A DNA stretch of 64,000 nt from Deltaproteobacteria bacterium (GTDB taxonomy: Bacteria; Myxococcota_A; UBA796; GCA-2862545): contig REDI01000054.1 of assembly GCA_007693595.1 (NCBI GenBank), positions 1-64,000 on the forward strand. Direction: 5' to 3'. The position numbers were made by a program, and so were the translations under genes. Numbering within the stretch: position 1 is the first letter of the stretch; each line of letters starts with the position of its first letter. Below are positions 58,142 to 64,000 of the stretch, piece after piece. The notes below the pieces were generated by a model, which worked only from the letters and a program-made list of their open reading frames with translations, was not told where the DNA came from and ran no database searches.

Positions 58142-58918
58142 CTAGGCGCTGTGCTCGCGGAAGTGCTGCGCTCGGACCTGAACCTGATGCCAGAACTGGC
58201 TCCATGGACCGACACCCATGAGATCACCACCGAAGTAGTTTGGAGGCTTGACCGGGGGATAGGTGTCGTGCAGCGGGATGACCGTGAGCTCCAGCCGGCG
58301 CTCTTCGATGCGCTTGCGGTGCTGCTCCATCGAGCGAAGGGTCTCGTCGATAAGCTCGTAGAAGCTCCCGAGCCGCTCGGTGACTGCCTCGCGGCCCAGG
58401 GTGGTGACGATGGCCTCGAGCCACGGCCCGATCATGAGATCGAGGAAGTTGCGATAGCTGAGGTAAGCGCGGTTCATCAGCTCACGCGAGATCGACCACT
58501 CGACCGCGCTGACTTCGTCCTTGGAGCGGAGGAGGAGCTGCAGCCGCTCGAAGCGATGCAGGGTGACCGCGCTCGCGGTGCGCATGATGAACACCACGTT
58601 GTCGCAGCCCTCGAGGGAGGGGTGCCCGGCGTGCCACTTGATCTTGCGCTCGTGTCGGTCGAGGAACTTCTGGATCCCGTCGCCGATCGCGCGCTCTTGC
58701 TCGTAGTCCCCGATGCCTTCGGTCCCGACGTTGAAGACAGGGAGAGGTTCGTTGGTGAGCTCGCCGGGCACCGAGCGGGGGATGTTCATCTTGTCGAAGA
58801 ACTCGGCGGTCCGCTCGTGGTCCGCCTCGTCGATCACTTCTTGGACGGTGGTGGTGAACTCGGCTTCGGATCGCGCGGCGGCGCGGTTGAGGCTCGCGAT
58901 GGTCACGGTCTTGGACAT
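58142..58918 (-). CDS. Conserved-looking uncharacterised protein upstream of fumC
   Basis: I do not recognise this 258-residue protein. It is soluble, mostly helical and charged, with segments such as FLDRHERKIKWHAGHPS near 85 and ERLQLLLRSKDEVSAVEWS near 125. A long amphipathic helix lies around 185-215 (MEQHRKRIEERRLEL). The C-terminus is rich in Trp, Phe and His (WSQFWHQVQVRAQHFREHSA). No signal peptide, membrane helix, cofactor motif or nuclease motif is seen. It is 86 bp upstream of fumC on the same strand. The composition and codon use are those of a genuine gene of this genome. Function unknown. Confidence 0.75.
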   Translation of the reverse strand: MSKTVTIASLNRAAARSEAEFTTTVQEVIDEADHERTAEFFDKMNIPRSVPGELTNEPLPVFNVGTEGIGDYEQERAIGDGIQKFLDRHERKIKWHAGHPSLEGCDNVVFIMRTASAVTLHRFERLQLLLRSKDEVSAVEWSISRELMNRAYLSYRNFLDLMIGPWLEAIVTTLGREAVTERLGSFYELIDETLRSMEQHRKRIEERRLELTVIPLHDTYPPVKPPNYFGGDLMGVGPWSQFWHQVQVRAQHFREHSA

Positions 58919-59391: not shown

Positions 59392-61077
59392 TCAGCGAAC
59401 ATTGTACTTGATCATGCCCTCGATGATGATGCAGTCCAGAGGGGGCGGAGGCGTCCCGATGTTCTTGTCGAGGGGCAGATCGCCCGCTGCGGGGTCCAGC
59501 GCGGCCATGCACGGGATGAACACCGCCCGCGCCAGCGCGGCCCCTGCCTGCTGGAGGGCGTAGGGCTTGACCCGCTGCACCTCGTTGAGCGCGACCGAAG
59601 GGGTCATCGATCTTCCCGTGAGGTTTAGGTTGCTGAAGTCCCCGTTGAAGTCTGCTGCGTAATATCGAACGAGGCGGTTGATGACGCCCACGTTGTCCTC
59701 TGGATCGGGCAAGAAGCGGCCCGCTTTAGGTCCGATCGCGGGGTTCAGGGCTTGGATGAGCTCCGCCACGTTGTTGCTGGAGCGAGGATCTTCGGTGATG
59801 TCGCTGCCCCCCTCGAACATGCAGACGATGTTCTGTTCGTTGACCGCTTGCAAGGCATTGAGCTCATCGAAGCTATCCGGTGGGACGTAGCCACGAAGGG
59901 TCGACGCGCTCTCGCGCAGGGCTTCGGCTTGCTGCTCCCGGTCCATGGCGCGCCACTTGGCGTAGTCGGCGGCTGCGTCGTGGGTCAGCCCCCTCACGCC
60001 GAGCTGCTGGGCCTGGCGCCAGGTCATCGCCATGGGACCTCGGCCGCAGACCTCGTTGCCAAGGCTGTCGCCGTCGATGAAGGTCCAATCGCGGTCCGCT
60101 CCCACACCCTCGAGGGCGGCGATGTAAGGCAGCACGCGGAGCAGGATCTCTGGCCAGCCTTGGCGTTGCATCTGATTCTTGATCTGCACGAAGTCGCTAT
60201 CGTTGCGGCGATACACCCAGCGGAGCCGGTTTTGGCGGTCCTCGCTGTTGACGAGCGCGGTGAGCTCCTGTCGGAAGGCGTTGAGGAACTCTTCATCCTG
60301 CTGGAGCACGAACTTGACCCCGGGGTCGACGCCGTTCGCGCCTCCGATGATCCGCGCGGCGTAGGATTCGAGGGTCGGCCCCTGGCCCTCGGAGCCTCCG
60401 CCGAGCATGGAGACCTCCGAGCGGCAATCGGTCAGCTCAGTATCCTTCTTGGCGGCGTCGACGGCGGACTGGCAGGCCACCAGCCCCAGCCCCCCGGCGA
60501 AGAGCCACCCTGCCAGGACGGCGATTCCGCTGATGAGGTATCGAGGGCGAAGAATCGCGCCGGTCTTGATGAACGTGCCCCAGCGCTGGATCTCGGCGCC
60601 GCCTCGGGTGGTGAGGAAGGTCACGAGCCCCTGTCGCTTGAGCTCCGAGAACAGGCTCTTGCCCGAGAGGCGCTTTCGGGCGCGGTCGAAGTCGGACTCT
60701 TTGGTCTTGGGTTGCCCCTTCTGGCTAATCAGAAGGATGTAGAAGCGGGGGCCTTCGGGGGTCACCAACGAGAAGGAGTCGGCCGAGTAGGTGTCGCTCG
60801 CGCCTTGGGCCGCGACGGGGGAGGTCACCTGCTTGGCGCTGCTGCCGGCGCGGAAGGCGAAGACGCCGGCGGTGCGCTCGATCGGGGCGATGACGAAGCT
60901 GCCATCGCCCTGAGAGAGAAGCTTGACGTGGTTCGGAAGCACGCCGAGGTTCTCGGGAAGCACGATGTCATTGCTTGCGGGATCGGAGCCGAGGCGGATC
61001 TCCATGCCCTTGAAGGGGCCGAAGCGGGTACCGCCGAACTCGGGTGCGAGCTCCAGGAAGGTTTCGGTGAGCGCCAT
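59392..61077 (-). CDS. FHA-domain single-pass membrane protein
   Basis: A 561-residue protein. The N-terminal ~115 residues have the FHA pattern (GMEIRLGSDPASNDIVLP, then LPNHVKLLSQGDGSFVIAP), a domain that binds phosphothreonine. A basic linker leads to one transmembrane helix at about 179-202. The C-terminal ~360 residues lie on the other side of the membrane and belong to no family I recognise; they include several cysteines and a helical middle. No signal peptide, so the FHA is in the cytoplasm. It is divergent from the membrane-FHA/vWA/kinase genes, with a 181-bp AT-richer gap between. Its position suggests it reads phosphothreonines made by the neighbouring kinase. Confidence 0.82.
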   Translation of the reverse strand: MALTETFLELAPEFGGTRFGPFKGMEIRLGSDPASNDIVLPENLGVLPNHVKLLSQGDGSFVIAPIERTAGVFAFRAGSSAKQVTSPVAAQGASDTYSADSFSLVTPEGPRFYILLISQKGQPKTKESDFDRARKRLSGKSLFSELKRQGLVTFLTTRGGAEIQRWGTFIKTGAILRPRYLISGIAVLAGWLFAGGLGLVACQSAVDAAKKDTELTDCRSEVSMLGGGSEGQGPTLESYAARIIGGANGVDPGVKFVLQQDEEFLNAFRQELTALVNSEDRQNRLRWVYRRNDSDFVQIKNQMQRQGWPEILLRVLPYIAALEGVGADRDWTFIDGDSLGNEVCGRGPMAMTWRQAQQLGVRGLTHDAAADYAKWRAMDREQQAEALRESASTLRGYVPPDSFDELNALQAVNEQNIVCMFEGGSDITEDPRSSNNVAELIQALNPAIGPKAGRFLPDPEDNVGVINRLVRYYAADFNGDFSNLNLTGRSMTPSVALNEVQRVKPYALQQAGAALARAVFIPCMAALDPAAGDLPLDKNIGTPPPPLDCIIIEGMIKYNVR

Positions 61078-61258
61078 GCGGAAGCCTCGAAGAGTGGAAG
61101 CAGGAGGCTAGCACACCGCCCCCGTCCTTGTGGAGGCGGTCGATGTTGTGGGTCTATTTATCCGCGTGAAAACATGATATTTGTGGAAACTTGTCGTTCA
61201 TTCGCCCCCCGCGTCCCTCGGGTGAGGTAGAGTCCCGTCGCATCATGGGACGAGCCGC
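61078..61258. promoter_or_regulatory. Divergent promoter region between the FHA gene and the FHA-like/vWA/kinase genes
   Basis: A 181-bp gap between divergent genes. Bases 61154-61202 are clearly AT-richer than the surroundings (for example GATATTTGTGG), as expected for overlapping divergent promoters. No perfect -35/-10 pair was found by eye, and no hairpin stands out. One shared region would allow the two gene sets to be expressed together. Confidence 0.5.
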
Positions 61259-62374
61259 ATGAACATCTTCCTGGTACCTCACACCGCCTTCCGTCACGTC
61301 GCTGTCGCCTTCCTGACCGGCGCAGTTCCGCTGGTGATCTGGTGGTTTCTCTTGAACTGGCAGGTCGTGCTCGGGCCTTGGCTCTTTCAGGCTGGATTGC
61401 TCTGGGATCCGATGTTCGAAGGCACCATTCTCTTCTCGCTCATGGCAGGCGCCATCGCTTGGGTGCACATCAGCGCCGAGTGTGGCCTTCGACGCCGCGC
61501 GATAGCCTGGAAGATCCTGCTACCCTTCCTAGCAGCCTTGTTCTCCTTCCTTCTCACCGGCGTGCTGGTCTTCGCCAACGCGGTCCTCACGCCCCTCATC
61601 GTGGGGCTCATCGACCCTTCGCTCGGTGAGATTCTGGCCGATCCGTCGACGGCGACCTACCGCTTTCGGCTGCTCGACTGGATCTTCGCGGGCACGATGA
61701 TCAGCGTGTTTACGCTGCTTGTTCGCGTTGGGTGGGGATTCGTAGGTGGCCTGTCTCCCTACATCCCGGAGTCGATCGCCGCTGTCTTCGAGGTCCCTGC
61801 GCAGCCGGCCAAGGTCGGCCTCTGGATGAGCCTCGAGCATCTGCTCGCCGGGCCATCCGCGGCGCTCATCGGGGCGGCGGTCTGGCACATCCTCAGTCAT
61901 ATCGTCATCAAGGATATGTACCTGGCCACCGCCTTGGGTTTCACCTCCTTCGGGTTTTGCTTCGGGCTCATCGCCTGGGGGGTGCCGTCCGACCTCTATG
62001 CGGGGTGGATCCGGGTCTTGTCCTCTCATCGGTTCGGTCACCGGATCCCCATCGACACGCCGGAGGGGGGCGTGGTCGAGCGGGTCGTCGGCCACTATCC
62101 TCGCGGGCTCGATCTCTGGATCGGAGCGGAGCACGGGGTGGCAGAGCTGCACGCTTCCTTCGTGCGCGCCACGGACGGCGCCTATACGGTGCGAGGCCTG
62201 TCTCAGCACCCCATCAAGCTCAAGCGGGCGCTCGAGAGCGTCGACCTCTCCTACGAGCCGACCTCTCCTGTTCCGCTCGAGACCGACCTACGCATGGAAG
62301 ATCGCGTGATGATCGGCCCCAAGAAGCAGCAGACCATCGTCGAGTTCATCATGCTGCCCAAGGAGGAGCGGTGA
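61259..62374 (+). CDS. Polytopic membrane protein with FHA-like C-terminal domain
   Basis: A 371-residue membrane protein. About six to seven transmembrane helices occupy residues 10-250. The C-terminal ~110 residues are soluble and have the spacing of a degenerate FHA domain (RVVGHYPRGLDLWIG, AEHGVAELHASFV, DGAYTVRGLS, LRMEDRVMIGPK), including a His in the place of the usual SxxH serine-histidine. A phosphopeptide-binding role is thus possible but uncertain. It starts at ATG 61259 with a weak site and overlaps the vWA gene by one base (TGATG). No family for the membrane part is recognised. Confidence 0.78.
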   Translation: MNIFLVPHTAFRHVAVAFLTGAVPLVIWWFLLNWQVVLGPWLFQAGLLWDPMFEGTILFSLMAGAIAWVHISAECGLRRRAIAWKILLPFLAALFSFLLTGVLVFANAVLTPLIVGLIDPSLGEILADPSTATYRFRLLDWIFAGTMISVFTLLVRVGWGFVGGLSPYIPESIAAVFEVPAQPAKVGLWMSLEHLLAGPSAALIGAAVWHILSHIVIKDMYLATALGFTSFGFCFGLIAWGVPSDLYAGWIRVLSSHRFGHRIPIDTPEGGVVERVVGHYPRGLDLWIGAEHGVAELHASFVRATDGAYTVRGLSQHPIKLKRALESVDLSYEPTSPVPLETDLRMEDRVMIGPKKQQTIVEFIMLPKEER

Positions 62375-63882
62375 TGAACACGTCTTTGCGGCACCTGTTC
62401 GGACTCTTCGCTGCGATGCTCGTCGCAGGGTGCGTCGATCCAATGTCTGCCGAGACTGCCGTCCCTATCGATGGCACCACCTATCGGATCAGCCCCCCTG
62501 TCGTGACCGAAGGGAGCGAACTCACCGTCGATATCATGCGCGACATTCGCCGCTGCAAGCAGGTGTTCAGCAACCCGGATCGCTACGACGCCAATGCCTT
62601 CGAGAGCCACGAAGACCGCCTGGAGCGTTGCCTTCCTCGGGTGGACCGCGCCTCGGGGCAGGTGGAGCTGTCGTTCCGTCTCGCGCAGCGTGACAACGCG
62701 AACCGCGGACTCATCCTCCCTCTCCAGAAGGATCACGTGCGCGTTCGGCACATGGAGCGGGAGGTCCCCCACTTCGAGCTCGAGCGCTATGGGCGAGCCG
62801 ATGCGGGGCAGCTCTTCATCCTGCTCGTCGACGCTACGCACACCATGGGGCTCGCTGACTCCCAGGGAATCACTCGACTTCAGCGCGTCATCAACGCGAT
62901 CTTGGGAGCCAAGAACACGATCCTCGCTCCAGGCTCCGCCGTCGCGGTGCTCCGGTACGGAACAGAGATCTCGGGCACGGCGGGGCAGCCCATCTCCGAG
63001 GTGGTCCCTGTCACCACCGCGGCCGAGCTCAAGGCCGAGCTCGAGGCTATCAAGAACCCTCGGGGCTTCACCGAGCTCTATGGCGCGGTGAGTCAGGCGG
63101 TCGGCCCGCTGCTCGACGCCGATACGGCGATCTCCAGGTTTCTCTCGGAGCGCGACATGCAGCCGACGGTCGTGCTGCTCACCGATGGCTTCAACAACCG
63201 GCACAGGCGCGAGCGCTGTGGCGACAACGCGCCCAAGTTAGCCGATACGCTTCAGAACCTCCGTGCTGCCCGTCAGAAACCACCCAGCCAGCGGCCGGTC
63301 CTGTATACGGTCGGGTTCGGCGCGCCGCCTTTCCGTCCCGGGTGGGTCGCGCCCAAGGACGACATCAGCGTCACGCCGGAGCAGTTGTGCGGGGAGTTCG
63401 TCCACAACTTCATCGACGGGGAGCTCGACGCCGTGTCGATCGACAACGTCTCGCTGTTGTGGCTCGCCGAGGTAGGCGGCGGTGAGGGCTTCATCAAGCC
63501 ACACGTGGGACAGATCCGCGAGGCGCTCGCGGATACGGCTCCGCAGCGCTTCACTTGGTATCGGGTAAAGTACAGGGTAGACCCATTTTACCACCGCTCC
63601 TCGTTCAACTCACGCATCGTGCTGACGCAGTTCGTCGCCGCGGATGCGAGCGTCATGATCCACCCGAGTCCTTGGTTCGATGTGCCGACGGGCCTGCCCA
63701 CCGAGGAGGGAGCGGAGGAGGGAGCGCGGTGGGTCAAGCCGGGTGATATTCGCCGCGCCACGAGCTTTACCGTGCCCTTGTTAGGTGGGTTCATCGTGTT
63801 GGGCTTTCTGGGGTCGGCCTTGTTCAATACCCGCCGGGCCCTCTTCCGTCGCGCGAAGCGCTCGTCCAAGAAGAAGAAGTGA
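62374..63882 (+). CDS. vWA-domain lipoprotein with C-terminal membrane anchor
   Basis: A 502-residue lipoprotein (LVAGC, Cys20). A von Willebrand factor A domain runs from about 145 to 340. The metal-site motif is DATHT at 153-157, a variant of DxSxS in which Thr replace both Ser; LLTDGFNN is the usual third metal-site region. A loop-rich segment follows and a C-terminal helix (LLGGFIVLGFLGSALF) precedes a cluster of Lys/Arg, so both ends are tied to the membrane and the vWA domain is periplasmic. vWA domains bind protein partners through the metal ion. The next gene begins 25 bp later and is a kinase. Family by motif; partner unknown. Confidence 0.85.
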   Translation: MNTSLRHLFGLFAAMLVAGCVDPMSAETAVPIDGTTYRISPPVVTEGSELTVDIMRDIRRCKQVFSNPDRYDANAFESHEDRLERCLPRVDRASGQVELSFRLAQRDNANRGLILPLQKDHVRVRHMEREVPHFELERYGRADAGQLFILLVDATHTMGLADSQGITRLQRVINAILGAKNTILAPGSAVAVLRYGTEISGTAGQPISEVVPVTTAAELKAELEAIKNPRGFTELYGAVSQAVGPLLDADTAISRFLSERDMQPTVVLLTDGFNNRHRRERCGDNAPKLADTLQNLRAARQKPPSQRPVLYTVGFGAPPFRPGWVAPKDDISVTPEQLCGEFVHNFIDGELDAVSIDNVSLLWLAEVGGGEGFIKPHVGQIREALADTAPQRFTWYRVKYRVDPFYHRSSFNSRIVLTQFVAADASVMIHPSPWFDVPTGLPTEEGAEEGARWVKPGDIRRATSFTVPLLGGFIVLGFLGSALFNTRRALFRRAKRSSKKKK

Positions 63883-63907
63883 ACTCCTGACCCGCTAGCG
63901 AGGACGC

Positions 63908-64000
63908 GTGCCCCGAACCATCGCCGGCTACGAGATCGTCAAGGAGCTGGGAGCAGGCGCGTTTGGGACCGTCTGGCTCGCTGAGGGCGAGGTGCCTCGA
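63908..64000 (+). CDS. N-terminus of a Ser/Thr protein kinase (right edge)
   Basis: Only 31 codons fall in the window. They begin MPRTIAGYEIVKELG and continue with GAGAFGTVWLAEGE, a textbook glycine-rich loop of eukaryotic-like kinases (GxGxFGxVxxA). The invariant lysine would be just beyond the edge. GTG at 63908 has GAGG four bases upstream. It follows the vWA gene by 25 bp and is probably in the same unit. Its ending and sensor domain are outside the window. It is a different protein from the kinase at 18342. Confidence 0.88.
   Translation, partial: MPRTIAGYEIVKELGAGAFGTVWLAEGEVPR

Follow-up and report, generated by a model that had tools for sequence, protein, structure and literature searches.

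What do two FHA-fold proteins, a vWA protein and a Ser/Thr kinase, encoded next to one another around a single divergent intergenic region, do together? These genes lie at the end of a 64,000-nucleotide stretch of DNA (hereafter, the window), which spans positions 1-64000 of a contig 88,438 bp long, one of 97 that make up a 4.9 Mb genome. The initial annotation, made from the nucleotide sequence alone, interpreted the arrangement as a phosphorylation circuit, in which the kinase writes phosphothreonine (pThr) and the FHA domains read it. Our analysis shows that the genes belong to a conserved block, encoding membrane proteins, sensor-like proteins and a kinase, that in an order of marine bacteria adjoins a phage-tail-like contractile injection system (CIS).

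All four reported genes, denoted here A, B, C and D, are in place (Table 1), and they form one conserved locus, with the two FHA folds and the kinase confirmed. The gene joints are also as described: the stop codon of B (TGA) and the start codon of C (ATG) overlap in TGATG, and 25 bp separate the stop of C (63882) from the GTG start of D (63908). The gap between A and B is indeed shared and divergent, but it is only mildly AT-rich (34% AT in the window as a whole), with the AT content reaching about 61% in the core; a scan of this gap for sigma-70-like promoters found none.

Table 1. Features of the locus, in window coordinates
Feature	Positions	Strand	Remarks
258-aa soluble protein	58142..58918	-	no family match; adjoins A in the loci of 13 relatives
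Protein A, 561 aa	59392..61077	-	N-terminal FHA fold, one TM helix, cysteine-bearing C-terminal domain
TM helix of A, residues 184-202	60472..60528	-	hydropathy and structure prediction
FHA fold of A, residues 1-118	60724..61077	-	pThr-binding Arg absent
A/B divergent intergenic region	61078..61258	.	181 bp, 41% AT
Protein B, 371 aa	61259..62374	+	about six TM helices, C-terminal FHA fold
FHA fold of B, residues 245-367	61991..62359	+	pThr-binding Arg absent
Protein C, 502 aa	62374..63882	+	lipobox, vWA domain, C-terminal TM helix, basic tail
C-terminal TM helix of C, residues 465-483	63766..63822	+	hydropathy
Protein D start, Ser/Thr kinase	63908..64000	+	gene extends to contig position 66253, past the window

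Domain architecture of the block

Protein A had been described as a single-pass FHA protein, and both parts of this description are borne out by a single TM helix and by the predicted structure (mean pLDDT 82.7, from an alignment of 30 sequences), the N-terminal part of which matches FHA domains in a Foldseek search of the PDB (probability 1.00, E = 1e-3). The best match of this fold is Chlamydia CT664/CdsD, a ring protein of a type III secretion system (T3SS), with YscD and PscD also matched. By Pfam, the FHA domain is below the threshold for the window's own protein (E = 0.036), and homologs reach E-values of up to 1e-6. The C-terminal domain yielded no fold match in the Foldseek search of the PDB; it contains four cysteines that are invariant in the alignment of homologs (C344, C419, C523 and C549), which is consistent with a periplasmic location. 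The possibility that this domain is a degenerate lytic transglycosylase, suggested by the motif GRGPMAMTWRQAQQLGV, was rejected because a profile-profile comparison with the transglycosylase Z (see below) gave no match in this region and no fold match was found either. Short paralogs of A, about 210 aa long and consisting of the FHA fold and TM helix only, are encoded elsewhere in the genomes of relatives (G013:C4:128766, G014:C23:2601, G036:C216:358 and others).

The hydropathy profile of protein B contains six to eight hydrophobic segments. The FHA-like end of this polytopic protein had been singled out in the initial annotation as a point on which the interpretation could fail. Pfam found no FHA match in this part of the protein; the predicted structure (mean pLDDT 87.8, alignment of 28 sequences) supports the fold, with the last approximately 125 residues matching FHA domains in the PDB (Foldseek probability 1.00, E = 5e-5). 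By the positive-inside rule, the FHA fold of B would face the cytoplasm.

For protein C, the proposed vWA lipoprotein with a C-terminal anchor, all the expected features were detected. The hydropathy profile reveals a hydrophobic N-terminus that includes the lipobox, in which Cys20 is nearly invariant, and the C-terminal TM helix. Pfam identified VWA_2 in 17 of the 20 family members (best E-value, 5e-10) but not in the protein encoded in the window; the family retains the MIDAS residues: D in 20/20, S/T in 20/20 at both positions, T in 19/20 and D in 20/20 sequences.

Only the glycine loop of the kinase had been visible within the window, and extension along the contig yielded the complete protein D, a 781-aa transmembrane Ser/Thr kinase (Pkinase, E = 2.6e-35) with the VAIK, HRDLKPEN and DFG motifs and one strong TM segment at residues 603-621 by hydropathy; the short end that follows this segment is presumably periplasmic.

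A contractile injection system beyond the window

The four genes are where the initial annotation placed them; the CIS located downstream of the operon, which is decisive for the interpretation, was outside its view. Past D, the contig encodes proteins E, F and G, followed by the CIS genes, and ends there. Just beyond the window lie the components by which an eCIS-type CIS locus is recognized, with an AAA ATPase, eCIS_core, Pvc16_N, two sheaths, a gp19 tube and CIS_tube on the same contig; hub, gp25 and baseplate J genes follow in the cluster of a relative. Protein E (599 aa) has a signal peptide and a C-terminal Phe that is invariant in 13 sequences, F (327 aa) is a degenerate kinase-like protein with a TM segment, and G (about 490 aa) has a signal peptide. 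Neither E nor G has relatives in the databases, and PDB profile searches with both came up empty; judging from the signal peptides and, for E, also the C-terminal Phe, they are probably outer-membrane partners.

Several other proteins of these clusters deserve mention. In relatives, the opposite end of the CIS carries a gene denoted Z, adjoining a second Ser/Thr kinase; in the window's genome, Z and the second kinase are located on another contig. Z combines an FHA-like N-terminus, a TM segment and an SLT-type lytic transglycosylase domain (PF01464, E = 1.2e-9), with the catalytic Glu present in all 29 homologs. Upstream of Z is a pseudokinase-like protein with a weak Pkinase match (0.0003; L065:17715-19835 on the plus strand and, in the window's own genome, L108:15470-17545 on the minus strand). 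A further CIS-locus membrane protein (L065:14443-15366, plus strand; L064:13084-13992, minus strand) begins with a YukD (ubiquitin-like) region (E = 2.7e-8), contains several hydrophobic stretches and has weak matches to RING/PHD-like zinc fingers at the C-terminus. Between the tube and CIS_tube genes, one locus contains a 1551-aa Arg/Ala/Ser-rich frame without Pfam matches (L011:13207-17862, plus strand), and several relatives maintain a comparably long gap there; this frame could encode a tape measure protein.

Identity with a type VI secretion system (T6SS) was rejected: IcmF_C (TssM) was found in none of 38 relatives, with a control genome positive, so that the T6SS membrane complex is not on hand. 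The eCIS_core and Pvc16 genes are like those of released eCIS, which brings up the alternative that the block is a release module, in which Z, with its conserved transglycosylase motif, would cut peptidoglycan, and A, B and C would detect damage to the envelope and permit lysis, allowing free eCIS particles to exit the cell. We find this quite improbable, given that no holin-like gene was recognized in the module and that Z, a membrane-tethered FHA-type protein, looks like an enzyme for local opening of the wall, not bulk lysis.

Conservation and linkage to the injection system

Conservation of the gene order, the other point on which the initial interpretation could have failed, is evident: the arrangement A<>B-C-D-E-(F)-(G)-H is kept across the order, which excludes a chance assembly of genes. 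Protein A is present in 36 of the 38 close relatives. A single-sequence scan of genome contigs with A matched only the sister genome, and a profile would reach further. Profile searches covered one phylum, represented by a sample of 379 genomes (63 from the window's order and 316 others), and within this scope detected A in 58 of the 63 genomes of the order (55 with full-length A) and B in 58 of the 63, with 0/316 matches outside the order for either protein. Both A and B are new families that, within the phylum sample, occur only in the window's order. The CIS marker Pvc16_N is far less restricted, with matches in 142 of the 379 genomes, indicating that the other CIS of the phylum manage without the module.

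Within the order, the module and the CIS occur together. For full-length A and the CIS marker, the counts among the 63 genomes are 54/1/3/5 (both, A alone, marker alone, neither; Fisher p = 4.6e-5), and for B they are 56/2/1/4 (p = 1.2e-4); the genomes share ancestry, so that these counts are not independent. In 18 of the 19 genomes with both on one contig, A and the CIS are separated by 13-26 kb, and each of the six families sampled within the order shows the linkage. It is not obligatory: in G128, G181 and G204, which represent part of one family, A-B-C-D are intact and the CIS is not adjacent within the stretch read. That A<>B-C-D stay together even without an adjacent CIS indicates that these four genes are a unit.

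These unlinked genomes, together with the abundance of FHA proteins in the window's genome (13 matches), could be taken to mean that the block is an envelope-sensing operon in its own right, with the CIS cluster as no more than a travelling companion. Such independence appears very unlikely in view of the linkage in all six sampled families and of the joint absence of the module and the CIS; in G016, A and Z are reduced to fragments and the CIS marker is missing.

The 258-aa protein encoded next to A (Table 1) is strongly conserved in this position in the window's family and one other family. A PDB profile search with this protein returned nothing; it is a possible accessory of the module.

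Phosphothreonine-binding residues and loss of the kinase

We examined the pThr-binding residues of the FHA folds. The Arg is missing in all 30 homologs of A and all 28 homologs of B, being replaced by Ser or Thr in every A and by His or Ser in every B, and is found in one of the 29 Z sequences. The pThr-binding Ser is kept in just 2/30 A and 1/28 B homologs, whereas the FHA-site His is retained in both families. As a control, the canonical FHA domains of the window's genome carry both Arg and Ser in all eight cases tested. The kinase itself is not a constant component of the block. Where D is retained, nearly every locus has the kinase motifs intact; however, in five relatives (G003, G004, G005, G014 and G017), either the kinase domain or the entire D is missing, with A, B and C still in place. 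These five loci fall in at least two places on the tree of A+B+C, in which some branches are weakly supported. A, B and C thus appear to function without this kinase, for which other kinases might substitute. The version of the module that diverges most, from a long-branched lineage (L074 and L075, in G003 and G015, respectively), keeps homologs of A, B and C; in L074, E and G are kept as well and the kinase is absent.

The original proposal, that the kinase writes pThr and the FHA domains read it, is therefore weakly supported. In its most specific form, it would be a phospho-switch akin to the T6SS threonine phosphorylation pathway, with D phosphorylating A, B or a CIS component, FHA-pThr binding triggering firing, and C acting as a sensor. 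The parts list fits: a kinase, FHA proteins and a vWA domain beside a contractile machine recall Fha1 and PpkA of Pseudomonas, which combines a kinase, a TM segment and a periplasmic VWA domain (PMC3224232), and the intact motifs of most D proteins and the second kinase next to Z point the same way. The binding site does not fit: the Fha protein of the Agrobacterium T6SS requires R30 and S46 of the pThr site, and loss of both abolishes Hcp secretion (PMC3953482), whereas the Arg is missing from every A and B homolog and the Ser from nearly all. Given also the losses of D with retention of A, B and C, and the lack of a PP2C phosphatase on the contig, we regard a phospho-switch as unlikely. The missing residues and the kinase losses fit better with a structural envelope complex in which the kinase is an optional switch. 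An FHA fold without pThr-binding residues has precedents: in PrgH and YscD of the T3SS, the pThr site of the FHA fold is poorly conserved; PrgH was judged unlikely to bind pThr, yet its FHA-fold domain is required for proper assembly (PMC3635987). Such a fold can also bind a partner, phosphorylated or not, via a non-canonical site.

TerY-type triads (vWA, PP2C and kinase) had been cited as an example of vWA domains that pair with kinases and phosphatases. PP2C_2 has nine matches in the genome, none of them on contigs C7 or C54, with an assembly break leaving part of the cluster unseen. In the absence of PP2C from the part of the locus on the contig, identity with a TerY-type triad is ruled out.

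A candidate envelope module

On balance, we slightly favor the interpretation of this locus as an envelope module of the CIS that lies immediately downstream on the contig, which, going by sequence and predicted structure, probably ties the CIS to the cell envelope and controls its firing. A, with a cytoplasmic FHA fold, a TM helix and a periplasmic cysteine-bearing domain, and B, with its cytoplasmic FHA fold and about six TM helices, would together make up a platform in the inner membrane. The FHA folds would have a structural role in docking or assembly, comparable to that in SctD/PrgH, and would not be pThr readers. C would be a membrane-tethered periplasmic vWA protein, and E and G would be probable partners linked to the outer membrane. 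The transmembrane kinase D might tune assembly or firing upon an envelope signal, being dispensable in some lineages, and Z, with its FHA-TM-transglycosylase architecture, could open the cell wall for the machine. That these proteins are oriented in this way, assemble into a complex, dock to the CIS baseplate and control firing is what we infer from these features.

A more ambitious and more tentative scenario is that these Gram-negative bacteria possess a trans-envelope complex of the order's own, by which a machine of eCIS descent becomes a T6SS-like weapon that is anchored to the cell and does without TssJLM, the kinase being an optional trigger. The complex in such a weapon would consist, equally speculatively, of an FHA-fold ring protein, a six-TM anchor, a vWA lipoprotein, an outer-membrane partner and a wall-cutting FHA-transglycosylase.

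Whatever the fate of that scenario, the candidate envelope module also offers a natural test of whether FHA folds located beside kinases need phosphorylation. It further calls for caution in annotation: the combination of FHA and kinase genes should not be equated with phospho-signaling until the binding residues are checked.

Comparison with known systems

The T6SS threonine phosphorylation pathway (PpkA, PppA, Fha1, TagQRST) shares with the locus a transmembrane Ser/Thr kinase, an FHA protein and a vWA domain, in both cases with a contractile machine. However, the FHA domains of the locus lack the pThr-binding residues, the vWA domain is a separate lipoprotein, PP2C is missing from the contig and IcmF was not found, some relatives have lost the kinase, and the machine is of the eCIS/Pvc16 type. 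The locus does resemble T6SS control in its list of parts, but the defining pThr-binding feature is missing.

In structural terms, A resembles SctD (PrgH/YscD/CdsD), which likewise has an FHA fold without a pThr site, cytoplasmic in SctD and predicted to be so in A, one TM helix and a periplasmic domain. Unlike SctD, the C-terminal domain of A has no match to the periplasmic ring-building domains in the PDB and contains invariant cysteines, and the machine served by the module would be a CIS, not a T3SS.

Contractile clusters with gp19 tube and sheath genes are known from environmental genomes, namely, marine Myxococcota MAGs, in which the tube gene of an eCIS is highly transcribed; the main text of that report mentions neither FHA nor kinase (PMC11937823). 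A literature search found no description of the module, which is not proof of absence.

Attachment of CIS to the membrane by membrane proteins, as proposed here for the module, has been described in Streptomyces, where the membrane protein CisA is required for CIS firing (PMC12237407), and for the Anabaena tCIS (PMC8894136). CisA is a single bitopic protein and tCIS relies on extensions of the tail fibre (Cis13) and baseplate (Cis12), unlike the module; we found no description of a kinase-FHA-vWA operon in the literature for either system. A counterpart of B comes from haloarchaeal T6SS-mode CIS, for which a protein with six TM segments and a cytoplasmic domain, encoded upstream of the cluster, has been proposed as the anchor (PMC11566945). 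Likened by its description, this protein, Hbor_38620, resembles B in the six TM segments and cytoplasmic domain, the location beside the CIS cluster and the correlation with CIS subtype; the terms FHA, vWA and kinase are absent from the text of that paper, and no six-TM candidate was found among the proteins checked in the Haloferax larsenii CIS locus. The haloarchaeal anchor and CisA make an envelope role plausible. The cited papers describe anchors that consist of one protein or of extensions of the fibre and baseplate, whereas the module, with multiple genes and new families, would be a concrete candidate for the attachment of an eCIS-descended machine to a Gram-negative envelope.
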